Assembly (NCBI GenBank): GCA_035499655.1
Contig: DATJYL010000236.1
Coordinates: forward strand, 1 to 50,108
Reading direction: 5' to 3'
DNA from: Pirellulales bacterium
Lineage (GTDB): Bacteria > Planctomycetota > Planctomycetia > Pirellulales > JADZDJ01
Length of the DNA stretch: 50,108 nucleotides
The translations under genes were made by a program, and so were the position numbers. Each line of letters begins with the position of its first letter. Position 1 is the stretch's first letter. Below the pieces are notes generated by a model. The model was not told where the DNA came from and did no database searches. It saw only the letters and a list, made by a program, of their open reading frames with translations. Shown here piece after piece: positions 703-26,322 of this stretch.

Positions 703-740
703 TTGACATAAACTTACTGTACTGGTACAACTAGTACAGT
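703..740 (+). promoter_or_regulatory. Promoter with GntR/YtrA-type operator
   Basis: A TTGACA -35 box at 703-708 is followed by a perfect inverted repeat, ACTGTACT (716-723) and AGTACAGT (733-740), covering the expected -10 region (weak TACAAC, 726-731). The palindrome lies 15 bases before the start of a GntR-family gene. YtrA-type regulators usually repress their own ABC-transporter operon from such a site, so autoregulation is inferred. Confidence 0.75.
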
Positions 741-755
741 GGGGAGTGAACCACC

Positions 756-1157: not shown

Positions 1158-1203
1158 ATTGTGCTAAACCGCAAGCGCGGTGCAAACACCGCGGATAAAT
1201 GAA

Positions 1204-1224
1204 CCCCTAACCCCTAACCCCTAA
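1204..1224. repeat. Tandem heptamer (CCCCTAA)3
   Basis: Three exact copies of CCCCTAA lie in the 95-bp spacer between the GntR gene and the ABC ATPase gene. This is one of several low-complexity word repeats found between genes in this window. No function is evident. Confidence 0.85.
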
Positions 1225-1252
1225 CTCCTGCCCTTTACCCCCTTCGCCCGCC

Positions 1253-2176: not shown

Positions 2177-2871
2177 AGACCATCGTGCGAAAAGAACTGC
2201 GCGAATTGCTGCCGTTCGTGGCCCTGGCGCTGTTGATCCAAATTTTTTTGATCTGCGCCGCCACCGGAGCAAACTTAGGTGGCTTGGCGTGGATTGTGTA
2301 CGTGTTGCTGCCTAGCGCCGGAAACGGCGTCATCCCCTTCGTCGGCGATTTGTACTGCGTGGCGATGTTAGTTGTATCCGGTTTGTTGGCCGTCGCCGTG
2401 GGTTTGTGGCAAACCATGTGGGAAGCAAACCGCGGCACGTTTCAATTTCTTCTTCACCGGCCATTTTCACGAAGCGGCGTGATTGCCGCCAAGCTTTCGG
2501 TGGGCATCGCCCTCTGTTTGTTGACGGCTTTCTTGCCGCTGGTGTATTACGCCGTTTGGGCCGCCTCGCCCGGAACCAATGCCAGTCCCTTCGACTGGTC
2601 GATGACGACCAACACCTGGGTCAATTGCGCCCAAATTCCGTTGCTCTATCTGGCCGCCTTTTTATGCGGGTTGCGCGAAGCCCGCTGGTTCGGCAGCCGC
2701 TGCTTTCCGCTGGCGGCCGGTCTTCTTCTGCTGTTCGTGTTCTTGCTTTCGCAGGTGTTGTCAGTCTGGGTCGTTGGCGCTTCGCTGATGTTGCTGCTGC
2801 TATCGCTGGCCGCGGAAAGTTGTTTTGCGCTGGTCATTCTTCAAGTGGGCCGTACACGTGACTTTTCCTGA
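2170..2871 (+). CDS. ABC-2 type transporter permease
   Basis: A 233-residue integral membrane protein forming the membrane half of the upstream ATPase. It begins with the ABC-2 signature-like MLKTIVRKELRELLPF and has about six hydrophobic segments: FVALALLIQIFLICAATG, GLAWIVYVLLP, AMLVVSGLLAVAVGLW, VGIALCLLTAFLPLVYYAVWA, IPLLYLAAFLCGL and LLLLFVFLLSQVLSVWVVGA. The start overlaps the ATPase stop. The downstream membrane protein begins 11 bases after the stop, so the operon continues. The direction of transport is probably export, based on family only. Confidence 0.85.
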   Translation: MLKTIVRKELRELLPFVALALLIQIFLICAATGANLGGLAWIVYVLLPSAGNGVIPFVGDLYCVAMLVVSGLLAVAVGLWQTMWEANRGTFQFLLHRPFSRSGVIAAKLSVGIALCLLTAFLPLVYYAVWAASPGTNASPFDWSMTTNTWVNCAQIPLLYLAAFLCGLREARWFGSRCFPLAAGLLLLFVFLLSQVLSVWVVGASLMLLLLSLAAESCFALVILQVGRTRDFS

Positions 2872-2882
2872 TCGGTGTTGCC

Positions 2883-4316
2883 ATGAACCATCGTGCTTCC
2901 CAATCCCGCGCAAGACCAATCCTCTTGGCCGCCGCTTTGGCTCTGGGTGCGTTGGGCCTTTGGATGGCTGCGTGGGGCATCGTCGCTTCCATCATCGATC
3001 AATGGACCTCTGGGAAACTGTGGGAATACTTACAGATCAATGGCCGGGGAGAAGTCGTGATCGAACAAGTTCATCGCGGCAGCGACATGACCTTCCGCAA
3101 CACAGCCGGACAACCCATCACCGATCCGACGGCCATCTATCCCCGCCCTGGTTCCTCGTTGCCGGCCGACGACGCCGCACGCTTTCAGGGCCCGCTCGAT
3201 TGGCCCCAGCGCATTGTTAGTTTCGAGGACGATCAAACCCCGCGCAACTTTTGGTATTTGGTTCGCGAAGCCCAGCCAAACGGCCACAATTATTTCGTTG
3301 GTTACAACAGCCAGTCGAAGCAGCGGATTGGCTATCTGTGCCTAGAAGGCTTCCGCAGCACTCCGCCCCCAATGGATCAGCAATTCGTCCTTTCCACGCA
3401 AAAAGTCGGCGGCGTTTTCGCCGGAAATTATCGCGAGGGCACGCAACCTACTAACTACACCTACCCTGCCGAAGTCGGCGATTTGGGGACGGCATTTCTG
3501 GTTTCCGACGCCAAGCTATTCGAAGTGAATTTCAAGCAGCGTTCTGTTCAATCGCTGCCTCTGTCCGGCGAAGCGCTTTCCGTGGCCCAAGCCTATGAAC
3601 CGAACTCCGCATCGCTCAATTCCGGCTACAAGCGAGAAATCGCCGTCCGCACCTCGGACAAAGTGCTGATCTTGGATTACGATGGCAAAACGCTCCGCAC
3701 GATTCTCATTCCGCCGGAACTGCGCGGTCAAGGCTTTGATGCGTACGCCTGGTGGAACCCAAACGCGGTGCTTGTGACCGATATTAGCGGCTGGGTCCAT
3801 CCGCCGGAAGTTTATTGGGTGGACAACCAAGGACAAATCGTTCGGCATGAGAAAGTGGATTTGTACGTCAATCCTCCCACCGATCCTCGGCTGATTTCCT
3901 GGGGCTGCGCTTTTTTGATGCCCGCGCCGCTGATTTTTGGCCCCATCATGTTGATCGACGCCCCCTTGGCCGATGTGCTCAATGGCAGGCAGCCCGCTTA
4001 CGCCGCCGCGCTGGCCCACTGGTGGAGCGCCGCTTGGCCGGCCCTGTTGGCCGTTTGTGTGCTGGGCGTCGCCGTGGGCATTTACGGTTTCCGCCGCCAC
4101 AAACGCTTCAGCGAATTTGGGTCGATCCGCTGGGCCGTGTTCGTCGCTTTGCTGGGCGCGCCGGGCTTAATCGGCTATCTATTGCATCGGCGCTGGCCAG
4201 CGACAGAAAAATGCGCCCATTGCGGCACGGTCAGTCCCCGCAATCGCGATGCTTGCCTGGCTTGCAGTGCCGAATTTCCGCTCCCGCCGACCAAAGGCAT
4301 CGAAATTTTCGCCTGA
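2883..4316 (+). CDS. Membrane protein with C-terminal zinc ribbon (ABC operon)
   Basis: A 477-residue protein of unknown function, last gene of the GntR/ABC operon. Residues about 12-40 form a membrane anchor. A large extracytoplasmic beta-rich domain follows (about 45-345), then further membrane segments near 345-365 and 375-440, and a C-terminal zinc ribbon with CAHC and CLAC pairs (CAHCGTVSPRNRDACLAC). The zinc ribbon would face the cytoplasm if the helices are counted correctly. Operon position suggests a sensor or accessory subunit of the transporter, but no family signature confirms this. A hairpin terminator follows at 4342-4390. Confidence 0.75.
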   Translation: MNHRASQSRARPILLAAALALGALGLWMAAWGIVASIIDQWTSGKLWEYLQINGRGEVVIEQVHRGSDMTFRNTAGQPITDPTAIYPRPGSSLPADDAARFQGPLDWPQRIVSFEDDQTPRNFWYLVREAQPNGHNYFVGYNSQSKQRIGYLCLEGFRSTPPPMDQQFVLSTQKVGGVFAGNYREGTQPTNYTYPAEVGDLGTAFLVSDAKLFEVNFKQRSVQSLPLSGEALSVAQAYEPNSASLNSGYKREIAVRTSDKVLILDYDGKTLRTILIPPELRGQGFDAYAWWNPNAVLVTDISGWVHPPEVYWVDNQGQIVRHEKVDLYVNPPTDPRLISWGCAFLMPAPLIFGPIMLIDAPLADVLNGRQPAYAAALAHWWSAAWPALLAVCVLGVAVGIYGFRRHKRFSEFGSIRWAVFVALLGAPGLIGYLLHRRWPATEKCAHCGTVSPRNRDACLACSAEFPLPPTKGIEIFA

Positions 4317-14889: not shown

Positions 14890-15948
14890 ATGAGCACGCC
14901 GCTGGTTGCATTGCCGAAAGTTCAACCGCGTAATTTGCCGGCGCCGGTGTCGGGCGTGGTTCCGCAGCGCGACTTGGACGAAGCGCGACCGGCGGCGCAA
15001 TATCTGCCGCTAGTGTTGGTTCTGTGCGCGATGTGCGCGGGAATTGTGGCCGATCGGCTGGTTGGATGGAGCGAATTCATTTCGTTTCCGCTGTGGTGGG
15101 CATTGGCGGGCGCGGCGCTGGCGGCGTGGTGGTGGTTGAGGAATAAGGGGCGCGAACGGCTGGCGAGCGTGGCGGTGCTGTTGGCCGTGGGGGCCGCCGG
15201 GGGCGCATGGCATCACGAACAGTGGAACTTATTCGGCGCCGATGAGTTGGGCTTGGTCACCACCGAAACGCCGCAACCGGTGTGTGTGGAAGTGGACGTT
15301 GTTGGCACGCCGGAAAGTATTCCGGCTCCGCAATTTGATCCGCTGCGATCTCTACCAGCAGGCTTGCAAAGTCGTTGGCTGGCAGATGTGGTGGGATTGC
15401 GGGACGGTGCGCAATGGCGACAGGCATCGGGGCGGGCAGAATTTTCGTTGGAAGGCGAATTGCACGACGTGCATGCCGGCGATCGGCTGCGGATATTCGG
15501 CCAACTGGAAGCGCCGCTGCCGGCGGGGAATCCGGGGGAGTTCGACACGGCGTTGTACGAGCGCTCCAAGCGCGAACTGAGCATGATTCGTGTGAAAAAG
15601 CCCGAATGCGTAAGCGTGGTGGCGCACAGTTCGATGTGGAGCCCGACGCGGTGGATCGACCAGGCTCGGCAATTTGGCGACCGGATGCTGTGGGGTTATT
15701 TATCGCGGGAGCGGGCTGGAATGGCGGCGGCGGTGCTGTTGGGTCAGCGCGAGCAGGTCGATCAGGAAACGAACGAGGCGTTTTTGGAAACGGGGACGAT
15801 TCATATTTTGTGCATTGCCGGTTTGCACGTGGGAATTTTGGCGTGGGTGTTGTTTGCGGTCTTCAGCACCGGGTGGCTGTCGCGGCGGACTTCACTGCTG
15901 GGCGTGATGCTGGTCACCGGCGCTTACATGCTGCTGACGATGGCCCAG
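14890..15948 (+). pseudogene. comEC: comEC, 5' fragment (interrupted by element A)
   Basis: The first 353 codons of a ComEC/Rec2 DNA-uptake channel. ComEC carries single-stranded DNA across the inner membrane during natural transformation. This part holds N-terminal membrane segments (YLPLVLVLCAMCAGIVADRL, LWWALAGAALAAWWWL), the soluble DUF4131/OB-like region, and the start of the competence domain with the hallmark ILCIAGLHVGILAW. The frame is intact up to the target duplication TGGCCCAG (15941-15948). There it runs into element A and stops about 14 codons later at 15990. Joined to 20737-22050 and 26323-26520, it gives an uninterrupted 856-residue ComEC. Any product of this piece alone would lack most of the channel, so it is called a gene fragment. 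Confidence 0.95.
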
Positions 15949-15974
15949 GGCACTGTACCTCTAAACCCACACAG
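15949..15974. repeat. Element A left terminal inverted repeat
   Basis: Matches the reverse complement of 20703-20728 at 21 of 26 positions by my alignment, including the outer 11 bases and an inner block ACACAG. The 8-bp target duplication TGGCCCAG lies immediately outside it. Confidence 0.92.
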
Positions 15975-16020
15975 CCATTCTAACACTTGAAGGCCGGCGC
16001 GCCAGTCTTAAACTAGCGGA

Positions 16021-16626
16021 ATGGATGCGTTTGAACTTCTCCGCAAGCAAGCCGCCCAAAAGCGCGATGCCCACGTTAAGGCCGCGCGTGCTGAATTCTG
16101 GCGGACTGTCGTAGCAATAAAAGCCCTGCGCCAGCGGCTCGACAGCAACGCCCCCAAGCCCCCTGTGCCGAACCCCAAATCGCTGATGGTTCTACTGCGG
16201 GAAAACATTCCGCATGATCGGTTGTTTTCTGCGGCAGACGCGATTGCGCTAATGGCCGATGCGGACCCGGAGCGGCGTATCCGCTTTCGCACCATCAGGC
16301 CCTACTTGGAACGGCTCGAAAAAAAGGGCATCGTTCACAAGATACGTCGTGGCACCCAAGGGGTGTTTTGGGCCGCTGCTGATTATGCGGGGCCGCTGGA
16401 CCTATCTAGCACGCGGTTCATAACCGAAGTAGCGGCGGAAGCCCTGCACAAATTCGGACCGCTCACAAGCCTAGAGCTGGTTGTGGCGCTGCGGGCGGGT
16501 GGTTATCGAACCGACGCTCCGGCGCGGGCACTACTGAATAATGTTGCTACGTCACTGAGGCGCAATCGGCTGTTTCGGAAGGACGGCAAACGGTGGTCTC
16601 TCAAATCTGCTCTCGCTTCGCCTTAA
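16021..16626 (+). CDS. Coiled-coil / double winged-helix protein of element A
   Basis: A 201-residue protein of unknown function. Residues 1-45 are a charged helix, probably a coiled coil (MDAFELLRKQAAQKRDAHV). Residues about 55-110 look like a winged helix (LFSAADAIALMADADPERR ... YLERLEKKGIVHKI). Residues about 130-197 look like a second one, resembling HARE-HTH domains (LTSLELVVALRAGGYRT ... SLRRNRLFRKDGKRWSL). A homologue with the same three-part layout is encoded in element B at 25655-26239. The start codon lies 72 bp inside the left terminus and the gene reads inward. Two DNA-binding-like domains next to a transposon end suggest a role in end recognition or in silencing the termini; this is inference only. 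The 3' end overlaps the convergent gene at 16601 by 26 bp. Confidence 0.78.
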   Translation: MDAFELLRKQAAQKRDAHVKAARAEFWRTVVAIKALRQRLDSNAPKPPVPNPKSLMVLLRENIPHDRLFSAADAIALMADADPERRIRFRTIRPYLERLEKKGIVHKIRRGTQGVFWAAADYAGPLDLSSTRFITEVAAEALHKFGPLTSLELVVALRAGGYRTDAPARALLNNVATSLRRNRLFRKDGKRWSLKSALASP

Positions 16627-16876
16627 CGTCGGCCAGTTTGCGGCCGGTTATCTTCGCAATCTCCGCGTCAGTAAAGTTGCGGAACAATCCAAGTTCGGTC
16701 GGTCCCCATTTGCCCGGCATCCTTACTTGTCGCGTCCAAGAGGCGATTCCCAGCTTGCGGCGCTTGAGAGCGACCGACTGATGCGAAACACCAAGTTTCT
16801 TGGCAATCACGCTGTCCGACATCGTGCCTAGCAGGGCGATTTCGGGGGCGGTCCAATGGTGATGGCCGGGGTGCAT
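16601..16876 (-). CDS. Small Myb/SANT-like HTH protein (element A cargo)
   Basis: A 91-residue protein made of two tandem helix-turn-helix units. The first is WTAPEIALLGTMSDSVIAKK followed by LGVSHQSVALKRRKLGI; the second is KWGPTELGLFRNFTDAEIAK followed by ITGRKLADVKAKREQI. The W-x-x-x-E-x-x-L-L-G pattern is like that of Myb/SANT-type HTH proteins common in planctomycetes and phages. I chose ATG 16876, preceded by a G-rich run, over an upstream ATG at 16933, which would add a tail of low-complexity sequence. It is convergent with and overlaps the winged-helix gene. Probably DNA-binding; no target known. Confidence 0.6.
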   Translation of the reverse strand: MHPGHHHWTAPEIALLGTMSDSVIAKKLGVSHQSVALKRRKLGIASWTRQVRMPGKWGPTELGLFRNFTDAEIAKITGRKLADVKAKREQI

Positions 16877-16953
16877 CCCCCCATTGTAACGCGGGGGCAG
16901 CAGAAACGTGTATAATGCTGGCCCCCCCCCCAAATAATGGCAAATTTAACCAC

Positions 16954-16982
16954 TTGACTTGCGCTATATAATTTTATATAGA
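16954..16982 (+). promoter_or_regulatory. Promoter with palindromic operator of the toxin-antitoxin pair
   Basis: TTGACT (16954-16959), a 17-bp spacer, then TATAGA (16977-16982). A perfect 18-bp palindrome, CTATATAATTTTATATAG (16964-16981), fills the spacer and -10 box. This is the expected arrangement for autorepression by the XRE antitoxin encoded downstream. Confidence 0.75.
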
Positions 16983-17028
16983 ATAACTGTGGGGCAGGTA
17001 CCTACAGGCCCGATATAAGGAATCGGTG

Positions 17029-17472
17029 ATGACAATAAGGCATGACGCATCGCACAAATTAAATTCTCCAAAGTACCTGGTGGTGGCAGTTGGCCCAGCA
17101 AAAATCGAAGGCAGAAAAATCCTAACGCCAGTTCAATACGCACACATGGTAGCGATTGAAAAAAGACTCGAAGATTGGGGCAATCGTGACGAATTGGCTG
17201 ACTTGGATATTGAAAAAGTTACGAATCAAATCTGGGAATTGAAAGAAAAAGGTGGGCCGCTCCACAAGAAGAACATTCGAGTTTATTTTTCCGTATTGGA
17301 AGAGAGCCGTGAGGTTGTCGTTTTGAAAACCTACAAAAAGGAGCAAGATGGACAAGTTTCTAGGCATGTTTTGATTAGCGCTGAAGATCGGCTTGATGAT
17401 TACGAGGCCGGGCTATTAAACGCCGGGAAATCCGTTCACATACCGACCGCAGTGCCAAAAAACGCCCGCTAG
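17029..17472 (+). CDS. RelE/HigB-like toxin (element A cargo)
   Basis: A 147-residue protein whose central part fits the RelE/ParE/HigB (Gp49-like) toxin fold. Residues about 65-105 contain IWELKEKGGPLHKKNIRVYF followed by SVLEESREVVVLKTYKKEQD, which parallels the core strands and the K/R-rich catalytic region of ribosome-dependent mRNA interferases. The N-terminal 50 residues (KYLVVAVGPAKIEGRKILTP) are an extension. ATG 17029 follows ataagg at suitable distance; a GTG at 17026 is an alternative. The XRE antitoxin gene starts 40 bp downstream, giving the toxin-first order of HigBA-type pairs. The likely role is maintenance of the element; toxicity is not provable from sequence. Confidence 0.68.
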   Translation: MTIRHDASHKLNSPKYLVVAVGPAKIEGRKILTPVQYAHMVAIEKRLEDWGNRDELADLDIEKVTNQIWELKEKGGPLHKKNIRVYFSVLEESREVVVLKTYKKEQDGQVSRHVLISAEDRLDDYEAGLLNAGKSVHIPTAVPKNAR

Positions 17473-17512
17473 GATCGACCATCGCAACCCAATCGCTTCG
17501 GAGGACTAACAC

Positions 17513-17980
17513 ATGTCATTAACAGTGAGCAACGACAGGAAGCGCAAGCTCACAAAAGAGGAGGAATCCTTACTGAATTTACTGGAAAGGTTGCCCTTGA
17601 AAAAACAGGAGCGACTATTGGAACTTTCCAGGCTATTCAAAGATGCGTGCGACGATGCTGAGAAGTGCGAAATTCGCGAAACTATGGCTGAGGTTATATT
17701 CCGTGCTCGGCCATTAACCGCTTCGCCAGTCGATGATGACGTAACAAAAGTCGAGATCGACAAACTTTCTAATCATCGCCGTTATGTAGCTAAGCAGATC
17801 AAAAAACTCAGAGTCAAGTCAGGAATGACGCAAGGGCAATTGGCAAAAAAAGCCAAACTGCCTCAGCCGCATATTGCCCGACTTGAATCGGGGTACCATG
17901 CGCCGACGTATAAGACAATAGAAAGGATCGCTGGTGCTTTGGGAGTAGAACCAGGAATAATTGATCCAGCCTATGATTGA
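17513..17980 (+). CDS. XRE-family antitoxin (HigA-like)
   Basis: A 155-residue protein with a C-terminal Cro/CI helix-turn-helix at about residues 95-150 (IKKLRVKSGMTQGQLAKKAK, then LPQPHIARLESGYHAPTYKT and IERIAGALGVEPGIID). The N-terminal 90 residues are a charged helical domain (LTKEEESLLNLLERLPLKKQ) that could bind the toxin. The start ATG 17513 has a strong ggagg site 8 bases upstream. It is the second gene of the pair and would both neutralise the toxin and bind the 16964-16981 palindrome. The stop lies 52 bp before the tRNA-like RNA. Confidence 0.85.
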   Translation: MSLTVSNDRKRKLTKEEESLLNLLERLPLKKQERLLELSRLFKDACDDAEKCEIRETMAEVIFRARPLTASPVDDDVTKVEIDKLSNHRRYVAKQIKKLRVKSGMTQGQLAKKAKLPQPHIARLESGYHAPTYKTIERIAGALGVEPGIIDPAYD

Positions 17981-18031
17981 TTCAGCAACATATCTGTTTT
18001 TTCCAAGTGACGGGCCGTTCTCTGAGTTTAC

Positions 18032-18121
18032 GGAGAGCGGCCCGCGCTTTGGAAGTGCAGCGACTTTATAACTCGCCTGTGGAACGGTTCGCGCCGTGGG
18101 GTTCGATTCCCACCCTCTCCG
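18032..18121 (+). ncRNA. tRNA-Ser-like (allo-tRNA-like) RNA of element A, anticodon UAU
   Basis: A 90-nt class-II tRNA-like fold. Acceptor: GGAGAG (18032-18037) pairs with CTCTCC (18115-18120). It can be lengthened by two more pairs if C18038 bulges, or read as 9 positions with two mismatches. The discriminator is G18121, as in tRNA-Ser. D arm: GCGC/GTGC with a GG-containing loop. Anticodon arm: 18060-18076, loop TTTATAA, anticodon TAT with U33 and A37; the closing pair is C·C. Variable arm: ACGG/CCGT (18084-18097). T arm: only 3 bp GGG/CCC with loop TTCGATT. CCA is not encoded, as in the host tRNA-Thr here. Element B carries a homologue with compensatory changes in the anticodon stem. A bona fide tRNA reading AUA, or a regulatory tRNA mimic, are both possible. 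Confidence 0.72.
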
Positions 18122-18126
18122 CTAGC

Positions 18127-18312
18127 CTATTGCTGGCGTTTGGCTGCCCGGCTGAGGCAGCCCCTAACCCACTCAGATAGCGAAAGTCGCGCCTTATCGG
18201 CTGCCCGTTGATATAAGGCCCGTTCCGCGTCTGTCATGCGTATAGGCACGATTTTGGCCGGCTCCCCGCTGGGGTCACGGGCTGGCCTGCCCGGTTCGCG
18301 TTTGGTTTCCAT
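18127..18312 (-). CDS. Small ribbon-helix-helix-like protein (element A)
   Basis: A 61-residue basic protein. After a Lys/Arg/Pro-rich start (METKREPGRPARDPSGEPAK) comes a strand (IVPIRMT) and two helices (DAERALYQRAADKARL, SLSEWVRGCLSRAAKR), the layout of ribbon-helix-helix proteins of the CopG/Arc or MobC type. It is divergent from the transposase across a 204-bp spacer holding the transposase promoter, so it probably regulates that promoter and its own. Its stop is 5 bp from the 3' end of the convergent tRNA-like RNA. Element B has the same gene in the same place (23134-23322), with a different N-terminus but a similar size and helix plan. Confidence 0.72.
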   Translation of the reverse strand: METKREPGRPARDPSGEPAKIVPIRMTDAERALYQRAADKARLSLSEWVRGCLSRAAKRQQ

Positions 18313-18358
18313 GCCAATAACGTAATACGAAATTCTTTGAAAATCAAGTGCAAAGTTA

Positions 18359-18387
18359 TTGACAGAAACCCGATAGTTTCGTATATA
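18359..18387 (+). promoter_or_regulatory. Transposase promoter, element A
   Basis: TTGACA (18359-18364), 17-bp spacer, TATATA (18382-18387): a near-consensus sigma70 promoter pointing at the transposase. The sequence GAAAATCAAG occurs about 10 bases upstream (18339-18348) and also about 10 bases upstream of the matching promoter in element B, which makes it a candidate regulator site. Confidence 0.75.
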
Positions 18388-18407
18388 CGTAAATAGAGCA
18401 AATGAAA

Positions 18408-18494
18408 CCCCGGTCTTGCTGATAACAAGGCCGGGGGAACGAAACTAGGCTTTCGCCCAATCTCGCCTGAGAAACCTGATTGTAAGCGAAGGCC
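18408..18494 (+). ncRNA. Conserved two-hairpin leader RNA before the transposase (element A)
   Basis: Hairpin 1 (18408-18436): CCCCGG and CTTG pair with CAAG and CCGGGG, with a T·G at the joint. Hairpin 2 (18448-18494): GGCTTTCGC pairs with GCGAAGGCC, then CAATC with GATTG, around a 15-nt loop containing CGCCTGAGAAA. The tail GGCCGCAACGAAA leads to the ATG. Element B has the same two hairpins, the same loop size and related loop and tail sequences, but different stem sequences. The role could be translational control of the transposase or binding of a factor; nothing in the sequence decides between these. Confidence 0.7.
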
Positions 18495-18516
18495 GCAACG
18501 AAAGAAAGCAGCGGCC

Positions 18517-19476
18517 ATGATACGGATAACCTGCCAGCACGAAACCCGGAAGAAACACGGCAAGGATCGTAAGGGCAATCAGCGGTGGAAGTGCTGCCTC
18601 TGCGGCGCAACGATTACGTCCGCCGAACACCGCCGGCCACTCGGCGATATGCGGATTGACCTGGACGATGCCTGCCGCGTGTTGTCGATGCTCTTGGAAG
18701 GAATGAGCATTCGCGGTTGCTCGCGGCTAACCGGCATCAAAGCCAACACCATTTGCGACTTGATTCTACTCGTCGGCGAAAACTGCGAAAAGTTTCTCCG
18801 CGCCAACGTCAAGAATGTTGCCGCCGATCAAATCGAATTGGACGAAATTTGGGATTTCGTCGGAATGAAACACCGCACGAAAGAGCGCAAGGGATATATT
18901 AGCGAAGATGGCGATGCGTGGACGTGGCTGGCCATCGACGTTAAGAGCAAGCTGATTTTGTCGCATACGGTCGGCGGACGCGATGAATACACTTGCAACC
19001 GATTCTTGCAACAGTTGAACGGCGCTACGGCCGGCCCCTGCCAAGTGACAAGCGATGGCTTGCGAACCTACACAAACAGTGTGCCATTTTTCATGGGCAG
19101 CCGTTGCTCGTTCGCTCAATTGGTCAAAACGTATTCCAGCACGCAGACCGAAACACGTTACAGCCCGGCCACGATAATAAGCGCCGAAAAGCATCCAGTG
19201 TTCGGCAATCCAGACCCAAACAAAATCAGTACTTCGCGGTCGGAACGTTTGAATTTGTCGGTTCGGATGCACTGCCGTCGCTACACACGATTGACGAACG
19301 CTCACAGCAAAACGCATCGGCATCATGCCGCGATGACTTCGCTTTTCGTGGCGTGGTACAATTACTGCCGTTGCAACTCGGCGTGCGGCAAAAAAACGAC
19401 GCCTGCGATGAAAGCAGCCCTGGCCGACAAGGTCTGGAGCGTGAAAGAATTGCTGGAGCTGGCGGCGGGGGCTTAG
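18517..19476 (+). CDS. IS1-family DDE transposase (element A)
   Basis: A 319-residue single-frame transposase. Residues 1-45 form an InsA-like zinc finger (C6, H8, C26, C29). Residues 46-100 form the HTH (MSIRGCSRLTGIKANTICDL). The catalytic domain gives D109 (LDEIWDFV), D180 (TSDGLRTY) and E243 (SERLNLSVR), followed by the IS1 signature RRYTRLTNAHS. E. coli IS1 makes its transposase by frameshifting, but here InsA and InsB parts are fused. It would cut and join the 26-bp ends and make the 8-bp target duplication seen. It is about 60% identical to the element B enzyme by eye. Codons 2 and 4 are ATA, and codons 220-221 are a tandem ATA-ATA shared with element B. Intact, so possibly active. Confidence 0.93.
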   Translation: MIRITCQHETRKKHGKDRKGNQRWKCCLCGATITSAEHRRPLGDMRIDLDDACRVLSMLLEGMSIRGCSRLTGIKANTICDLILLVGENCEKFLRANVKNVAADQIELDEIWDFVGMKHRTKERKGYISEDGDAWTWLAIDVKSKLILSHTVGGRDEYTCNRFLQQLNGATAGPCQVTSDGLRTYTNSVPFFMGSRCSFAQLVKTYSSTQTETRYSPATIISAEKHPVFGNPDPNKISTSRSERLNLSVRMHCRRYTRLTNAHSKTHRHHAAMTSLFVAWYNYCRCNSACGKKTTPAMKAALADKVWSVKELLELAAGA

Positions 19477-19830
19477 TGCGAACTGGACGTTCAGAGTCCG
19501 CGTAGACAGTGGTTAGGGGGAGATTTCTTCTGCGAACCAAAGCAATGGATGACAGATGATAAATCTGTGACCACTATAGGGTTTGTAGGGGCATGAGACT
19601 TGCAATCTCCTTAAATTGCCAAATCTCATACAACCAAAAGCTTGACGCTAATTTACCTAACAGCTATGATGCCAATGGGTTACGAATCGGTATTCGTTTT
19701 TAAGCAATCGCAGGTGTATAATACTTCCTCTTTTTTTCGATCAATTTAACAGCGCGAAGGACGCCACACGACCATCACTAATCGGCGCATGCAGGGAAGC
19801 GAAGCGCAGTCTCAAAAAGTGAGGCCGACC
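19477..19830. other. Intergenic region, element A
   Basis: About 350 bp without a convincing gene. It contains a TATAAT -10 box at 19717-19722 with a poor -35, probably the promoter of the downstream 84-residue protein/retropepsin pair, and a T-rich run at 19729-19737. Confidence 0.5.
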
Positions 19831-20085
19831 ATGGCAACGACAGAACACCTGAAAACAGAACTTGAAACGTACGAAAACAATCGCCAAAAACTAATGGTCA
19901 ATGGCGTGGGCAGGTACGTTCTAATCCAAGGTTCCAGCATCTTGGGAATCTGGTCATCCTACGAGGATGCGCTTAAAGCCGGTTATGAAAAATGCGGTGT
20001 TGATGGTAAATTTCTTGTGAAGCAAATTCAGGGGCCAGTTGATGGCATCCAGTTTTTCACAAGAGATTTCGCATGCCCAGTGTAA
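19831..20085 (+). CDS. Small protein paired with retropepsin-like protease (element A cargo)
   Basis: An 84-residue soluble protein starting at ATG 19831 (gagg site 6 bases upstream). It has an N-terminal helix (HLKTELETYENNRQKLM), then an alpha/beta segment (GVGRYVLIQGSSILGIWSSY, EDALKAGYEKCG) and FLVKQIQG. I recall similar small proteins next to retropepsin-like genes in many bacterial genomes, but cannot name the family with certainty. Its stop overlaps the protease start by 13 bases, so the two are translationally coupled and probably act together. Function unknown. Confidence 0.7.
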   Translation: MATTEHLKTELETYENNRQKLMVNGVGRYVLIQGSSILGIWSSYEDALKAGYEKCGVDGKFLVKQIQGPVDGIQFFTRDFACPV

Positions 20086-20513
20086 CCGCTACAATTACTT
20101 CAACAGGGCCTGTTGTTCGTTTAGCTGTCTTAGTTAGCGTTCCGAAGGCAGACGCGCTTAGAGCTGCGGGTCGTCCAGTTCCCGTTCCTGTGGTTATAGA
20201 CGGTCTATTAGACACTGGCGCATCAGGAACCTGCATTGACCCATCGACAATCAGCCAGCTAGGACTCACTCCCACTGGCTCTGTTCCAATAATAACTCCA
20301 TCGACCGGGACAACGCCGCACATTTGCGATCAATACGATGTTGCGATTGCATTGCTTTTAGGTGCTGGAGGAGTTCACATCATTGACACGTTGCCGGTAA
20401 TTGCGTCCCCTCTTGCGCACCAAGGACACTCAGCTTTAATTGGGCGTGACATTCTTTCGCGTGCAATCTTGATTTACAACGGCCACGAAAGCCACCTGAC
20501 GTTGTGCTTTTAG
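20073..20513 (+). CDS. Retropepsin-like aspartic protease (element A cargo)
   Basis: A 146-residue single-domain aspartyl protease. The catalytic motif is VIDGLLDTGASGTCID (D-T-G at about residues 48-50). A flap-like region follows, and the second conserved block is SALIGRDILSRAILIYNG near residue 125. Single-domain retropepsins work as homodimers and cut proteins. Bacterial versions occur as two-gene units with a small partner, as here (19831-20085). It also contains an ATA-ATA codon pair (P-I-I-T region). The substrate may be the partner or a host protein; unknown. No signal peptide, so cytoplasmic. Confidence 0.82.
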   Translation: MPSVTATITSTGPVVRLAVLVSVPKADALRAAGRPVPVPVVIDGLLDTGASGTCIDPSTISQLGLTPTGSVPIITPSTGTTPHICDQYDVAIALLLGAGGVHIIDTLPVIASPLAHQGHSALIGRDILSRAILIYNGHESHLTLCF

Positions 20514-20563
20514 TGGACGCATCAGCGGGGCTTTTTCTTTGCGCCCGTGGTAGAATGCCGTGC

Positions 20564-20656
20564 ATGAAACCCGGCGCTTGGATAATGCTGATTGCCTTAC
20601 TCTGCGGGCTCTTGTTTGCCCCTTACTTATACATTCGCCGTCGCCCACGGCTGTAA
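20564..20656 (+). CDS. Possible 30-residue membrane peptide (element A)
   Basis: A short frame beginning MKPGAW, with one hydrophobic helix (IMLIALLCGLLFAPYLYI) and a basic end (RRRPRL). It follows the protease gene by 50 bp and lies just inside the right terminus. Only a weak ribosome site is visible. The shape resembles small membrane peptides of type I toxins, but no antitoxin RNA is evident. It may also be chance. Confidence 0.35.
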   Translation: MKPGAWIMLIALLCGLLFAPYLYIRRRPRL

Positions 20657-20702
20657 AATCAAAAATAATTTCAACCCCTAGCCGCTACCGGCCTTCCGTC
20701 CC

Positions 20703-20728
20703 CTGTGTTGTTCTGGCGGTACAGTGCC
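20703..20728. repeat. Element A right terminal inverted repeat
   Basis: Inverted match to 15949-15974. The outer 11 bases (20718-20728) are identical. The second copy of the target duplication TGGCCCAG follows at 20729-20736. Confidence 0.92.
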
Positions 20729-20736
20729 TGGCCCAG

Positions 20737-22050
20737 CCGCCGGTGATGCGAGCTACGCTGCTAGTGTGGATTGTGTGCATAGGCATGTGGCTGGGGCGAA
20801 CGCGCATTGGCCTAAACAGCTTGGCGTTGGCGGGATTGGTGGTGCTGGCGATCAATCCGGCGGGATTGTTTCATGCGGGGGTGCAGTTGTCGTTTTTGTC
20901 GGTGGCGGTTTTGATTTGCGGCGGAGAGCGAATGTTTGGCGTGCGGCCGAGCGATCCGCTGGATCGGCTGATCGCCACGACTCGTCCGTGGCCGGAGCGG
21001 ATGGTGCGCCGCGGCGTGGGGCATGTGTTCGAATTGTTTGTGTTGGGGGCGCTGTTGTGGGTGGCCGTTACGCCGCTGGTGATGGCGCGGTTTCATTTGT
21101 TCGCCCCGGCGGCGCTGGTGCTGAATGTGCTGTTGCTTCCCGTGGTGGTGGTGGCCATGTTGTCGGGATTTGGCGTGCTTTTGTTTGGGTGGTGGCTGAC
21201 GCCGGCGGCCACAGTTTTTGCGTGGGCGTGCAACTTCAGCTTGAATGTGCTGGAATCGACGGTGAAGTGGTTTGCCCACTTGCCCGGCGGACGGTTTTGG
21301 GTGGCCGGGCCAAGCCCGTGGTGGTTGGCGGTGTTTTACCTGGGCGTGGCTGCCGTGGTGCTGTTGCCGCAGTGGCTGCCACCGCTGCGGTGGCGCGCGG
21401 CGCTGTTGGCCGGGTTGTGCGGCGTGGGCTTGATTGGCGCGCTGCCTGCCCGGGCAGATCATCACACGTTGCGCTGCGAATTTATTGCCGTTGGACACGG
21501 CGGCGGCGAATTGTTGGAACTGCCTGATGGCAAAACGTTGTTGTTCGACGCTGGCCGGATGGGCGCGCCCGTGGGGGGAGCGCGATCGATCAGCGCGTTT
21601 TTGTGGTGGCGGGGGATTACGCACTTGGATGCGGTGGTTCTGTCGCATGCCGATACCGATCATTACAATTCGCTGCCAGAATTGTTGCAGCGGTTTTCGG
21701 TGGGAGTGGTGTACGTATCGCCGGTGATGTTTCGCGAAAAATCGAAGGCGTTGCACGTTTTGAAAGACAGCATCGAAGAGTCGGGGACGCCGCTGAAATC
21801 GATCTATGCGGGCGACCGGTTAAAATTGGACGACGGCGTAACCATCGACGTGCTGCATCCGCCGCCGGGCGGTGTGGTTGGAAACGACAACGCCAACTGC
21901 CTGACGCTGGCGATAGAATACAGTGGGAGGCGGATATTGTTTACCGGTGATTTAGCGCCGCCCGGCATGGATATGGTGATGAACGGCGAGCCGTTTCATT
22001 GCGATGTTTTGCAAGCACCTCATCACGGCAGCGCGTATTCGGAGCCGGAA
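20737..22050 (+). pseudogene. comEC: comEC, middle fragment (between elements A and B)
   Basis: This continues the ComEC frame directly from codon 353. It carries the rest of the competence domain membrane helices (ATLLVWIVCIGMWLGRTRIG, LVVLAINPAGLFHAGVQLSF) and most of the C-terminal metallo-beta-lactamase-like domain (HADTDHYNSLP, ILFTGDLAPPG and HHGSAYSEPE). There are no stops or frameshifts in 438 codons, so the insertions are probably recent. It ends at the target duplication AGCCGGAA (22043-22050). An upstream in-frame extension into element A (from 20560) could give an artificial start, but the product would lack the N-terminal half. Confidence 0.95.
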
Positions 22051-22075
22051 GGTACTGGTAAACGAACGTGTGGGA
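22051..22075. repeat. Element B left terminal inverted repeat
   Basis: A perfect 25-bp inverted copy of 26290-26314. Target duplication AGCCGGAA lies immediately outside at 22043-22050. Confidence 0.95.
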
Positions 22076-22162
22076 AAAATAAATTCCCGCCGGTCGTGTA
22101 AACAGTGCCTTCCTGGAAATGCTGATACGTGACGGGCAACCAAATTACAACCCAGAAATAGG

Positions 22163-22882
22163 CTACGGACCTCCCGCTTCAAGAATTCCGACGGAGATTA
22201 TTGCATACTCTTTGTCTGGCATCGCCTTATTAAAGCGATTTAGAAGTTCATCTACTGTTTTGACGTTTTCGTCTACAGCTATAAGTTCTGGATATTTATC
22301 GGTAATTATTTGCGGTATATGTCCGGTAGTTCTTAGGACCTGCGCTAGTTGTTTAATGGCCGGAGTTTCTTTCTTGGCCAAGATTGCAATGCCTTTGTGT
22401 TGTGCAGACTCAAAGACTATCGGCGGTGAACGCACGGCTGTTTTGGATTCCCAGGTCGCTCTGTTTAGAACATTTGCATATTGCCAACTGATGCTCGGAA
22501 ATCTGGGTGCGGCAATATCAAGTGCGATTGGAAATTGTTTTCCTAGTTCGCGCAGGGCAGGAACCAATTCATCGAATTGGTCCGTTGTAATAATGCCTTG
22601 GTTGGAAACGTATTCCTTTCCTGATTCAGCCATTGCTTTCAAAGCGGACTGCAACTCCTCGATTCGTTTTGCAGAGGTACTTTCAACCGTTTCAGCGCGA
22701 CTTCTAAGGGTTACTATCTCTTGTTTGTTCGCTGCTGCTATCGCACTTCGGTGCCTCTCCTCGAATATCCCGCAAACTACTTCAAGCACAATTCCGCCCA
22801 GTACAGCAAAACCGCCAATGAGTACAAATACGTGCCAAAAATTAGCCCACCATTCGGCATTTGCAATTGCGGAAGCGTCCAT
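22163..22882 (-). CDS. Membrane-anchored coiled-coil protein (element B cargo)
   Basis: A 239-residue protein of unknown function. ATG 22882 is preferred, because a gaggg site lies 7 bases upstream; the frame is open to 22993. One membrane helix lies at residues about 15-40 (VFVLIGGFAVLGGIVLEVVC). It is followed by a coiled coil (KQEIVTLRSRAETVESTSAK, RIEELQSALKAMAES) and a C-terminal alpha/beta domain of about 130 residues (PIVFESAQHKGIAILAKKET, IKQLAQVLRTTGHIPQIITD). That domain has alternating strands and helices reminiscent of a receiver- or sirtuin/TIR-like fold, but I see no diagnostic motif. It reads out toward the left terminus and is not present in element A. Confidence 0.65.
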   Translation of the reverse strand: MDASAIANAEWWANFWHVFVLIGGFAVLGGIVLEVVCGIFEERHRSAIAAANKQEIVTLRSRAETVESTSAKRIEELQSALKAMAESGKEYVSNQGIITTDQFDELVPALRELGKQFPIALDIAAPRFPSISWQYANVLNRATWESKTAVRSPPIVFESAQHKGIAILAKKETPAIKQLAQVLRTTGHIPQIITDKYPELIAVDENVKTVDELLNRFNKAMPDKEYAIISVGILEAGGP

Positions 22883-23043
22883 AGACTTGCCCTCAAGCGA
22901 TGTCGAAAAGATTTCATTCGGGCTAGTAGCATTGTGGCTGCTACTGCGCCAACGCAGACGCCGGTACAGGCGATAAATAGCGTTTCCTAGCATGGCGCGA
23001 ACCTGCCCATTGATTTGCTCTCTTAATCGCTCTGTACTTTTAT

Positions 23044-23132
23044 GGAGAGCGACGCGCGCCTTGGTGGCGCAGCAGCTTTATACCCTGCCGGAGCGGTCGT
23101 AACAACGATGGGATCGAAACCCTTGCTCTCCG
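23044..23132 (+). ncRNA. tRNA-Ser-like (allo-tRNA-like, 9/3) RNA of element B, anticodon UAU
   Basis: An 89-nt class-II tRNA-like fold. The acceptor has 9 consecutive pairs: GGAGAGCGA (23044-23052) with TTGCTCTCC (23123-23131), including one G·T. The T stem is only 3 bp, GGG (23110-23112) with CCC (23120-23122), loop ATCGAAA. Together these give a 12-bp branch as 9/3 instead of 7/5. D arm GCGC/GCGC with a GG loop. Anticodon arm 23072-23088, loop TTTATAC, anticodon TAT, with a C·C closing pair as in element A. Variable arm of five pairs (23096-23100/23105-23109). Discriminator G23132. 9/3 and 8/4 Ser-like 'allo-tRNAs' have been described; this fits from memory. Its 3' end is 1 bp from the stop of the convergent RHH gene. 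Confidence 0.78.
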
Positions 23133-23133
23133 C

Positions 23134-23322
23134 TTAGCCGCGCCGTTGTGCGGCCTTTAGAAGCACCGTACGCGCCCATAAGCGGGCCTCAGTTGCGTCT
23201 AGTAGTTGCTTTTCGTCCAGAGTTAGCTTGACGGAAAACACTTGATCCCGCCGCTCCGAGGCGTCTTTAGGCTTGCGCCCGGCCCCTTCCCGTTTACCGC
23301 CGTGTTGTGGTTGTTTTGCCAT
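23134..23322 (-). CDS. Small RHH-like protein (element B)
   Basis: A 62-residue basic protein. The N-terminus (GGKREGAGRKPKD) is an AT-hook-like Gly/Arg/Lys stretch common in small DNA-binding proteins of mobile elements. It is followed by a strand (QVFSVKLT) and helices (LDEKQLLDATEARLWART, VLLKAAQRR) compatible with a ribbon-helix-helix fold. It is divergent from the transposase by 210 bp. It sits in exactly the position of the element A gene at 18127-18312, although sequence similarity is low. Probably represses the transposase promoter; this is inferred from position. Confidence 0.7.
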   Translation of the reverse strand: MAKQPQHGGKREGAGRKPKDASERRDQVFSVKLTLDEKQLLDATEARLWARTVLLKAAQRRG

Positions 23323-23367
23323 GCCCAGATTATTTGAAAAAAGTTTCCGAAAATCAAGCCCAATCTA

Positions 23368-23395
23368 TTGCAATCCCTTTTGATTTTGGTATACT
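23368..23395 (+). promoter_or_regulatory. Transposase promoter, element B
   Basis: TTGCAA (23368-23373), 16-bp spacer, TATACT (23390-23395). GAAAATCAAG (about 23349-23358) lies just upstream, as in element A. Confidence 0.65.
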
Positions 23396-23417
23396 GAAAT
23401 CAAGTGAGAAACAAAAA

Positions 23418-23511
23418 CCCCGTCAAAACCCGGCAAGGTTTCGGCGGGGCAAGACAATCCAGGCCGCTAAGCCCGAATCGCCCAAGTAAACGAATTCTAG
23501 CTTAGCCGGCC
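23418..23511 (+). ncRNA. Conserved two-hairpin leader RNA before the transposase (element B)
   Basis: Hairpin 1 (23418-23449): CCCCGTCAAAACC pairs with GGTTTCGGCGGGG with one mismatch. Hairpin 2 (23462-23511): GGCCGCTAAGC pairs with GCTTAGCCGGCC with one bulge, then GAAT with ATTC, around a 15-nt loop containing CGCCCAAGTAA. The tail GGCCGCAACTGAAAAGG supplies the ribosome site of the transposase. Stem lengths, order, loop size and tail match element A although the stem bases differ. Confidence 0.7.
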
Positions 23512-23532
23512 GCAACTGAAAAGGTTACGGCA

Positions 23533-24486
23533 ATGGTTATCTCAACTTGCTCCCATGAAAAAGCCCACAAACACGGCAAAGCGGCCAGCGGTGCGATTCG
23601 TTACAAGTGCGCTCTGTGCGGCAAATCTTTCGTCAAAGAATCCTCCAAGCCCATCGGCAATATGCGGATTGACGCCGACAAGGCCGCATTGGCGCTGTCG
23701 ATGCTGTTGGAAGGAATGTCGGTCCGAAGCGTCCAGCGCCTAACCGGCTTGTCTCGTCCGACGTTGGCCGACTTGATTTTGGTGGTCGGTGAAAACTGCC
23801 AACGGTTGCTCGACTCCAAGATTCGCAACGTCGCCGCGAAAGATGTCCAGCTTGACGAAATTTGGTCATTCGTCGGCATGAAAGAAAAGACCCGTTTCGC
23901 CCGCAACCACGCACTGGAGTTCGGCGATAGCTGGACGTTCATTGCGATTGAGCGCGATACGAAATTGATCCTCGCCCATCAAATCGGACAACGTGACACC
24001 GAAACGTGCTGTGCGCTGCTGCAAAAGCTAAACGCTGCCACCACGGGCCACTTTCAATTGACCACCGATGGTCTACGTGCCTACACGTTGAACGTGCCGT
24101 TCATTCTCGGCACGCGGGTGGACTTCGCACAACTGATAAAAGTCTACTCCAGCACGCAAGAACAAACCCGCTATAGTCCGGCCAAAATAATAAGCGCTGA
24201 AAAGCATCCGATATTCGGCAACCCGGATGAAAACAAAATCAGCACTTCCCATATTGAGCGGCTCAATCTCACGGTGCGCATGACTCTGCGTCGTTTCACG
24301 CGGCTAACGAACGGCCACAGCAAGAGCTTAAAGCACCACGCGGCCATGCAGGCGATTTTCTTCGCCTACTATAACTTCACCCGCAAGCATGAAACGCTAA
24401 AGGGCCAGACGCCGGCAATGGCCAGCGGATTGGCCGACAAGGTTTGGAGCGTGAAGGAGTTGCTGGAGAAAGCAGCGACAGATTGA
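23533..24486 (+). CDS. IS1-family DDE transposase (element B)
   Basis: A 317-residue transposase with the same architecture as the element A enzyme: a zinc finger (C6, H8, C26, C29), an HTH (MSVRSVQRLTGLSRPTLADL), and catalytic D108 (LDEIWSFV), D179 (TTDGLRAY) and E242 (IERLNLTVR), then RRFTRLTNGHS. It ends with TPAMASGLADKVWSVKELLE, also shared. The ribosome site (aaagg) lies about 9-10 bases upstream. Codons 219-220 are ATA-ATA at the position equivalent to element A. No frameshift or damaged catalytic residue, so possibly active. It should act on the perfect 25-bp ends of this element. Confidence 0.93.
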   Translation: MVISTCSHEKAHKHGKAASGAIRYKCALCGKSFVKESSKPIGNMRIDADKAALALSMLLEGMSVRSVQRLTGLSRPTLADLILVVGENCQRLLDSKIRNVAAKDVQLDEIWSFVGMKEKTRFARNHALEFGDSWTFIAIERDTKLILAHQIGQRDTETCCALLQKLNAATTGHFQLTTDGLRAYTLNVPFILGTRVDFAQLIKVYSSTQEQTRYSPAKIISAEKHPIFGNPDENKISTSHIERLNLTVRMTLRRFTRLTNGHSKSLKHHAAMQAIFFAYYNFTRKHETLKGQTPAMASGLADKVWSVKELLEKAATD

Positions 24487-24488
24487 CG

Positions 24489-24698
24489 CTACTTACTTTC
24501 GTCACTGCCTTCGCTAGAAGACGATAATACAATTCCGCTGGCAGTCACGAATGCGCGTGATTGTTTGTTCAAATGCTGATTGACGCTCGGAGTATCGCTT
24601 TCGATTTGACTAACGCGATCAGCAAAACTTTGCGGAAAAGGTACTAACTCTATCTCCTGCCGCGATGCACGTAAGATTTGACTAATAGATTCTGGCAT
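24489..24698 (-). CDS. Small hypothetical protein (element B cargo)
   Basis: A 69-residue Ser-rich soluble protein (MPESISQILRASRQEIELVP ... SSSSEGSDESK) of unknown function. It has a strong aggaggt ribosome site upstream of ATG 24698, and that site overlaps the end of the membrane GAF-like gene (12 bp apart), so the two form an operon. Its 3' end lies 2 bp from the convergent transposase stop. No domain recognised. Confidence 0.6.
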   Translation of the reverse strand: MPESISQILRASRQEIELVPFPQSFADRVSQIESDTPSVNQHLNKQSRAFVTASGIVLSSSSEGSDESK

Positions 24699-24710
24699 GT
24701 AGGGGACCTC

Positions 24711-25559
24711 CTAGCCGCCTGTTATAAAAGGGTACACGATACCTAGCGCGTCGGCAAATGCCATTAGAGGTTCAATGTGCATTTGCATAAAAGGATTTTC
24801 GGCAGAAGAAACATACAAAATGCCCACCATTGCCTTTTTACCTCGAATATATCCGTTAATCGGTGCTACCATCACAGTTTTAATATCAGTCAGGCTATCT
24901 GTGGCTGTTTCAACCCATACTCCATTTTCAATCGCTTGCCTAATGTTACGGATAAAATAAACTCCAAGTTTATTTTTTATTCGGAGTAATCTAGCAATGC
25001 CTTGTTCAGCAGGAAAGGACTGCGAAAGTTCAGCCCGGTTTGGATTTAACCTTTTTGATCTTCCAACCGTGGTGTATTTATCCGGCGACTCAGCTAATCG
25101 AATGGACGCGCCGACGCTGTGGTCGCCAGTAGCGCTACGAAAATAATCTGCAATCCGCTCTGCTGCATCACAGTGAAATTGCCTGTAGCGATGCCGATAG
25201 AGTTTTTTGTCGCTTTCTTTGTCGCTCACTGCCATTTTGATTATCTCATTTACATCCTCTCTCAGGCAGTGAAAAAATTGGTGCGCTGCTTTTCCAACCC
25301 AAAGTTGTGCAACACGCAATCGACGTACCACATACAAAGAAACCGTGAGAACAGTGAATGCTAAAACAAGAGATAATGTGACCCACCAAGGCTTCTCCAA
25401 CCAAATAGAGACAATCGTGGAGATTCCCTCAATCACCGTCGCACCAAAAATTGTGCGAGCCCGTAGTGCCCAACCGAATCCTTCTCGCCAGGCAGTTGAT
25501 GGATCGGCTTCGGGATACCAACAATTTTTGCTTAGGCTTTCGGCAAGACTAATATCCAC
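24711..25559 (-). CDS. Membrane protein with GAF-like domain (element B cargo)
   Basis: A 282-residue protein of unknown function. Two adjacent hydrophobic segments lie at residues about 33-82 (IFGATVIEGISTIVSIWL and WWVTLSLVLAFTVLTVSLYV). A helical linker follows, and then a C-terminal domain resembling GAF (TDIKTVMVAPINGYIRGKKA, MVGILYVSSAENPF, IEPLMAFADALGIVYPFI). GAF-type domains sense small ligands, and similar membrane-GAF proteins are found as sensor parts of bacterial defence and signalling cassettes. The 69-residue downstream gene is probably its partner. The pair could be a defence or maintenance cargo, but no effector motif is seen. Confidence 0.62.
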   Translation of the reverse strand: MDISLAESLSKNCWYPEADPSTAWREGFGWALRARTIFGATVIEGISTIVSIWLEKPWWVTLSLVLAFTVLTVSLYVVRRLRVAQLWVGKAAHQFFHCLREDVNEIIKMAVSDKESDKKLYRHRYRQFHCDAAERIADYFRSATGDHSVGASIRLAESPDKYTTVGRSKRLNPNRAELSQSFPAEQGIARLLRIKNKLGVYFIRNIRQAIENGVWVETATDSLTDIKTVMVAPINGYIRGKKAMVGILYVSSAENPFMQMHIEPLMAFADALGIVYPFITGG

Positions 25560-25654
25560 TGAAATAACTCCATGTTGCTAATCATGGTGTAAACCGGTGA
25601 AGATAAGGTCTGGGAAAATCAAGGTGTTAGCTGAACAGCCATACACAGCAGAGA

Positions 25655-26239
25655 TTACTTTGCTACACTCCACTTGCCGGACCTCTCGGCAAACCAGCCC
25701 CGGTTCTTTTTCATCGCCACCGCCAGCGCATTCCGCAGGCCCCGCTGCGTCATGGTGGTGCGATAGCCTTGCTCCAACATGCTCACGGCTAGCTCTGTGA
25801 TATTCAGACTGCGCCCCTGTAGCACTTGCGCCGCTACGTCCACGAGCCGCATATCCTCAAATGGTGCTGGCTGATGATCTACGCCTACCCGGACATAGAC
25901 TGCCGGTTGTGGCCCCTTAGCCTTGGTGAGCCGCTTGACGATGCCCCGCTCCCGTAATCGGCTGATATGGCTGTCGATGGAATGCCGCTGCCACACGCGG
26001 CGGGAGTTCATTGCTTCCAGGGAAGCCATGACATCGACGGTCGTAAACTCACGGTCCGATGGCAAGACGCTGTTAATGCACTCAGCGATGGATTTATGGC
26101 CCGATAGGTCTTTGCCGAGAATATCCTGTTCCAAGGCCGCGATTCTTACGAGCGTCGTTTCGTAAGCGTCTTTGATGGCGTAGATGGCCTTGTCTCTTTT
26201 CTCACGCGCTTTGCGCCGCAATTCGTTGAAGGCTTCCAT
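25655..26239 (-). CDS. Coiled-coil / double winged-helix protein of element B
   Basis: A 194-residue homologue of the element A gene at 16021-16626. The N-terminal helix is alike (MEAFNELRRKAREKRD here, MDAFELLRKQAAQKRD in A). A first winged helix (FTTVDVMASLEAMNSRRVWQ ... HISRLRERGIVKRL) and a second (LNITELAVSMLEQGYRTTMT ... MKKNRGWFAERSGKWSV) follow. ATG 26239 is chosen by alignment to element A; the frame is open 9 bases further. It starts 76 bp inside the right terminus and reads inward, whereas the element A copy sits at the left terminus. Its retention with unrelated cargo in both elements points to a function for the element itself. Confidence 0.78.
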   Translation of the reverse strand: MEAFNELRRKAREKRDKAIYAIKDAYETTLVRIAALEQDILGKDLSGHKSIAECINSVLPSDREFTTVDVMASLEAMNSRRVWQRHSIDSHISRLRERGIVKRLTKAKGPQPAVYVRVGVDHQPAPFEDMRLVDVAAQVLQGRSLNITELAVSMLEQGYRTTMTQRGLRNALAVAMKKNRGWFAERSGKWSVAK

Positions 26240-26289
26240 GCCCAGCAATGTAATACTGGCGCGCTGGGGCGTAAAATGCTATGATGAAA

Positions 26290-26314
26290 TCCCACACGTT
26301 CGTTTACCAGTACC
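26290..26314. repeat. Element B right terminal inverted repeat
   Basis: A perfect 25-bp inverted copy of 22051-22075. The second target duplication AGCCGGAA follows at 26315-26322. Confidence 0.95.
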
Positions 26315-26322
26315 AGCCGGAA

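Follow-up and report, generated by a model that had tools for sequence, protein, structure and literature searches.

A family of bacterial IS1-family transposons carries its own unusual tRNA-like RNA with anticodon UAU, and the matching codon, AUA, is concentrated in the transposase gene just before the presumed active-site Glu. This combination suggests that the element controls its own transposition through a private tRNA, although there are no expression or charging data and the direction of this control remains unresolved. All 31 transposases with an upstream UAU tRNA have AUA codons within residues 201-236, against 24 of 155 relatives without one, and in one relative with anticodon UAC the corresponding positions are filled by GUA codons.

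Two transposons carrying a tRNA-like RNA

The analysis started from a stretch of 50,108 nucleotides (hereafter the window) of a Pirellulales bacterium (assembly GCA_035499655.1, contig DATJYL010000236.1), in which an earlier note had recognised two tRNA-like RNAs and proposed that they are core components of a transposon family. Both RNAs are real and lie at 18032-18121 (copy A, plus strand) and 23044-23132 (copy B, plus strand). In copy B, GGAGAGCGA/TTGCTCTCC gives nine consecutive acceptor pairs, one of them G-U, and GGG/CCC a 3-bp T stem, with a 5-bp D stem. Copy A follows the same plan but is weaker, position 7 being C-C and position 9 G-A, so that nine consecutive pairs hold only for copy B, as the note had claimed. 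Both copies have G at the discriminator position, a 5-bp variable arm, a 5-6-bp D stem and anticodon UAU. The compensatory changes described in the note, G-C to A-U and A-U to G-C at pairs 3 and 4 of the anticodon stem, were confirmed, but the innermost pair (31-39), which the note did not mention, is C-C in both copies. ARAGORN and Rfam at its gathering score miss both RNAs, and neither is a canonical 7/5 tRNA. At a lax threshold Rfam gives copy A a weak tRNA-Sec match of 25.7 bits, and its other low-threshold hits (mir-1323, DUF3800-VI) are chance matches, although the mir-1323 hit pointed to a real leader hairpin (see below).

Both RNAs are contained in transposons of 4.8 and 4.3 kb that interrupt comEC. 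Element A (15949-20728) has terminal inverted repeats at 15949-15974 and 20703-20728, with 81% complementary ends, and is flanked by the 8-bp direct repeat TGGCCCAG at 15941-15948 and 20729-20736. Element B (22051-26314) has 25-bp perfect terminal inverted repeats and the 8-bp target duplication AGCCGGAA at 22043-22050 and 26315-26322. Each element has, in order, cargo, the RNA on the plus strand, a small ribbon-helix-helix-like gene on the minus strand and an IS1-family transposase on the plus strand. The small gene of element A (18127-18312) is NikA-like (PF21983, E 2.4e-6), whereas that of element B (23134-23322) has no Pfam match and was assigned by its position and by the WARxxLxxAA-like pattern shared with other elements. 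The transposases of element A (18517-19476; PF03400, E 1.6e-9) and element B (23533-24486; PF03400, E 1.1e-11) both exceed the Pfam cut-off, and the RNA ends 396-401 nt before the transposase start. The RNA could in principle have been a host gene at the insertion site. This is refuted for A and B, where the RNA lies inside the terminal repeats and the target is comEC, and relatives in different genomes keep the RNA mostly about 360-440 nt upstream of the transposase. The RNA is a passenger of the element, not its target.

Conservation of the RNA and its linkage to the transposase

A genome scan with the transposase, whole-genome searches and viral contigs gave 195 different transposases for a phylogenetic tree. 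A UAU tRNA-like RNA lies upstream in 31 of them (relatives are designated here by L numbers). Of these RNAs, 25 are of the 9/3 type, L019 is cut by the contig end, L020 is a 7/5 tRNA-Ser-like RNA, and L026, L235, L255 and L260 have a class-I body with a short D arm and A at the discriminator position. A strict cloverleaf scan missed most relatives and was replaced by looser scans and a covariance model, R2, built from six relatives, which finds 25 copies at 74-101 bits, with 86.3 bits for copy A and 93.3 bits for copy B. Across the alignment of the 25 RNAs, 92% of cells pair (helix 1 91.6%, helix 5 100%), 22 of 27 pairs show changes on both sides, including covariation in the variable arm, and the covariation score is 0.396 against 0.164 in shuffles, with 0 of 500 reaching it. 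Part of this signal is expected because the alignment was fitted to the model, but a MAFFT alignment of six sequences gives the same picture (15 of 27 pairs, 0 of 500 shuffles).

In an unbiased search of 397 Planctomycetia genomes, R2 found 35 RNA copies at E below 1e-6 in 27 genomes. We count 24 of them upstream of an IS1-family transposase or a remnant of one, one of these at 2.2 kb. By eye, 34 of the 35 copies have anticodon UAU, the solo copy L349 having UUU. The remaining 11 copies have no IS1-family transposase nearby, and we infer that they are remnants or half elements. One of them, in the window's own genome, keeps a short stretch like the tail of the ribbon-helix-helix gene. The allo-tRNA shape, the selection on the fold and the conserved linkage to an IS1-family transposase, all proposed in the earlier note, thus hold in further homologues. 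The note missed, however, the strongest clue, which lies in the transposase gene.

Codon coupling in the transposase gene

Codons were mapped onto transposase B. The association between a UAU tRNA and AUA within residues 201-236 (31/31 against 24/155) has a Fisher p of 1e-20, and is 31/31 against 18/143 among genes with GC3 above 0.5. In the tRNA-bearing elements AUA makes up 60 of 120 Ile codons in this stretch and 10 of 27 in the first five codons, against 7 of 344 in the rest of the gene, and ATA is the strongest codon enrichment in the stretch. At the eight well-filled Ile positions 64, 70, 78, 82, 110, 139, 146 and 248 AUA is used in 1 of 109 cases, but in 17 of 18 at 219, 9 of 10 at 230 and 10 of 20 at 236. 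Transposase A has tandem AUA codons at 19174-19179 (219-220 in B numbering), and transposase B has AUA at codon 202 (24136-24138), codons 219-220 (24187-24192) and codon 227 (24211-24213). The limits of the stretch were set after seeing the first elements, but a later class-wide search and the relatives L261 and L260 fit it. The stretch lies just before Glu242, the presumed third catalytic residue, and an AlphaFold model of moderate quality (mean pLDDT 70) puts residues 196-207 and 217-228 on two predicted strands before it.

There is also one codon switch. L033 (Gemmataceae) has a Ser-like tRNA with anticodon UAC (L033:257-360), and the only four GUA codons among the 22 Val codons of its transposase are at 218, 219, 220 and 236. 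This is a single case, strong but not a test on its own. A small prediction also came true, as L260, known only by its AUA219, turned out to have a UAU tRNA-like RNA with another, class-I, body. L239, an apparent exception, has an RNA 2.2 kb upstream, although the above counts still hold it as UAU-less. Some relatives in or beside the tRNA-bearing clades (L203, L204, L212, L045, L234, L252) keep AUA in the stretch with no RNA found upstream. Coupling was also looked for with other tRNAs near related transposases (L028 GCU, L039 UGC, L073 GUU, L076 UGC, and second tRNAs in L084, L235 and L255) and was not found. A +1-frameshift reading, in which AUA followed by a purine gives a +1 stop, was rejected as a general rule, since it applies to 43 of 60 AUA codons but five elements have none.

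INDEPENDENCE

The UAU-bearing elements fall in two clades (18 and 12 rows), with 14 changes on the tree, at least 8 of them forced by well-supported branches. Related sequences are therefore counted repeatedly, and the independent-pairs test, which never goes the wrong way (1.9 same, 0 opposite of 6), is too small to reach significance. The AUA cluster might accordingly be a pausing signal for folding, a mutational relic or a product of shared ancestry, with the tRNA as an unrelated passenger. We consider this unlikely, as the transposases are down to about 33% identical, control Ile positions show no AUA conservation, the two clades use different AUA positions (219/220 against 201/230/236) while the anticodon stays, and L033 shows the codon switch.

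Possible role of the RNA in the control of transposition

We favour, with fair confidence, the explanation that the RNA is a tRNA of allo-tRNA type that belongs to the transposon and acts on the transposon's own transposase mRNA. We infer that it is transcribed, matured and reads the AUA codons on ribosomes in competition with the host's tRNA-Ile2, so that the output of full-length, active transposase depends on the ratio of the two tRNAs. The host has TilS, and host ORFs of the window use AUA for only 22 of 437 Ile codons. It appears somewhat more likely than not that the transposon family regulates itself by a private tRNA and that codon and anticodon evolve together, AUA with UAU and GUA with UAC. 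Some observations speak against this view. UAU allo-tRNAs did not work in E. coli translation (PMC7609411), and the conserved weak points of the fold, with pair 31-39 broken in 18 of 25 and pair 7 in 12 of 25, are odd for an efficient tRNA.

The same defects, together with the leader of the RNA, could point to a non-translational part of the element, either a processed regulatory RNA or a DNA hairpin site, whose tRNA shape is a relic. The leader strand of copy A (18005-18031, plus strand) is complementary to its 5' acceptor strand and D arm, within a long hairpin at 17992-18061, and in the leader of copy B (23012-23043, plus strand) TCGCTCT can pair with AGAGCGA of the acceptor strand. The 45 nt before the RNA pair with its first 14 nt better than swapped leaders do (mean -15.5 against -13.2 kcal/mol; 0 of 20000 permutations). 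Many elements thus have an alternative hairpin that would hide the 5' acceptor strand and may control maturation, although several lack it (L084, L243, L249). A non-translational role nevertheless seems improbable, as it does not explain the conserved UAU on two different tRNA bodies, the AUA cluster or the UAC/GUA switch.

As to the direction of the control, we tentatively and only slightly prefer a self-limiting brake. The class-II body with G73 should be charged with serine, in line with the seryl-tRNA synthetase identity carried by (9/3) allo-tRNAs (PMC7590224). AUA, rare in the host, where tRNA-Ile2 normally puts in Ile, would then be misread as Ser at hydrophobic positions near the active site and give dead transposase, the more so with more copies. 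However, AUA is absent at Ile110, beside the presumed catalytic Asp, where misreading should hurt as much, and the class-I A73 tRNAs do not look serine-specific.

Alternatively, though we hold this less likely, the tRNA could open a gate. The AUA codons would slow or abort translation, leaving a DNA-binding but inactive N-terminal fragment, and the element's tRNA would let ribosomes through and so switch the transposase on. The codons cluster just before the presumed catalytic Glu, so that an abort yields a product without it. AUA is also raised in the first five codons, where misreading would be harmless but slow decoding is not, although this signal is not significant against relatives (p 0.1). 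UAU-less relatives mostly have Ile, Val or Leu at 201, 227 and 236 (Ile or Val at 236), so normal reading gives a normal protein (at 219 the residue is mostly Cys or Val), and canonical IS1 seems likewise to control its transposase by translation. The gate better explains the raised AUA at the first codons and the avoidance of Ile110. On the other hand, since the host has TilS, AUA can be read anyway, and G73 and the class-II body do not suit IleRS.

Either mechanism would be a new way for a mobile element to control itself, by a dedicated tRNA and matching sense codons instead of an antisense RNA, a frameshift or an inhibitor protein. It would also give a role to the still unexplained allo-tRNA(UAU), and offers an evolved tRNA-codon pair that may be of use in genetic-code work.

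Comparison with known systems

The RNA belongs to the UAU group of allo-tRNAs, and the idea of a transposon-borne allo-tRNA, considered new in the earlier note, is not wholly so. According to a review (PMC7609411), Mukai et al. 2017 found allo-tRNA(UAU) to be the commonest allo-tRNA group in soil and sediment metagenomes, overlapping a transposon-related ORF in Edaphobacter C40, and suspected a transposon or toxin-antitoxin link. Our RNAs share with that group the 12-bp acceptor branch, here as 9/3 in copy B and most of the 25 aligned RNAs but not in L020 or the class-I relatives, as well as the long variable arm, the Ser-like elements, the non-Ser anticodon UAU and the stem defects. That group was known from metagenomes and one pseudogene, whereas we describe a defined element with ends, a mostly fixed place of the RNA in 31 elements, a leader complementary to the acceptor strand in many of them and matched AUA codons in the transposase. 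We found no report of a defined element with a matched codon in the part of the literature surveyed, so that priority is not certain, but as far as we could check it is the system, and not the molecule, that is new in kind.

With the IS1 family (PF03400) the elements share a DDE transposase, the 8-bp target duplication, terminal inverted repeats of 25-26 bp and, apparently, a control of the transposase at translation. They differ in their size of 4.3-4.8 kb with extra genes and a tRNA, in a control apparently exerted by codon and tRNA, and in the single uninterrupted transposase frame of A and B in place of the two frames joined by programmed frameshift of canonical IS1. As single-frame IS1 relatives seem to exist, the latter excludes only the canonical subgroup and not the family. 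Finally, horizontally acquired or phage tRNA-Ile(UAU) (e.g. PMC6582537) and, presumably, the suppressor tRNAs of recoded phages are also cases where a mobile element brings a tRNA for a codon rare in the host. Those are ordinary tRNAs, often in phage-derived clusters, whereas here a single tRNA is tied to codons at fixed positions of one gene of the element.

tRNAs upstream of related transposases

Related IS1-family transposases, mostly in Acidobacteriota, have tRNAs with nonsense anticodons (UUA, CUA) about 130-160 nt upstream, as seen in transposase loci L039 (4671-4844), L265 (1551-1638), L031 (4779-4867) and L014 (about 120-200 nt before its transposase), but no matching in-frame stop codon was found in the transposase. 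Other tRNAs with unusual anticodons (GCU on a class-I body, UGC on class II, CGU) are located 80-130 nt upstream of related transposases in L028 (1929-2003), L307 (1592-1665), L076 (1006-1101) and L064 (about 82 nt before its transposase), and no codon coupling was seen in L028 and L076, the two loci in which it was examined. The class-I UAU tRNA-like RNAs of L026, L235, L255 and L260 are about 66 nt long, with a very short D arm and A at the discriminator position. L235 and L255 have a second tRNA (GUC, UAC) next to it, as has the related locus L084 (UGC). Additionally, contig C240 of the window's own genome carries about 30 tRNA genes packed within 3 kb (736-3688), a tRNA array perhaps belonging to a mobile element.

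Neighbouring genes and hairpins

Solo RNA copies, in L340, L341, L347 and L350, lie beside cargo-like genes, namely a TOPRIM/ATPase-like pair, a HigBA-like pair and other unknown proteins, and element A also has a Gp49/HTH toxin-antitoxin-like pair (window 17026-17980) just before its RNA. In many planctomycete members, two hairpins (CCCCGG...CCGGGG and a second) lie between the ribbon-helix-helix gene and the transposase start, at 18400-18516 and 23420-23532 in the window. Each of the two elements has a similar-looking protein of about 200 aa, possibly winged-helix, near one end (16021-16626 on the + strand and 25655-26248 on the - strand), in different orientation relative to the transposase.
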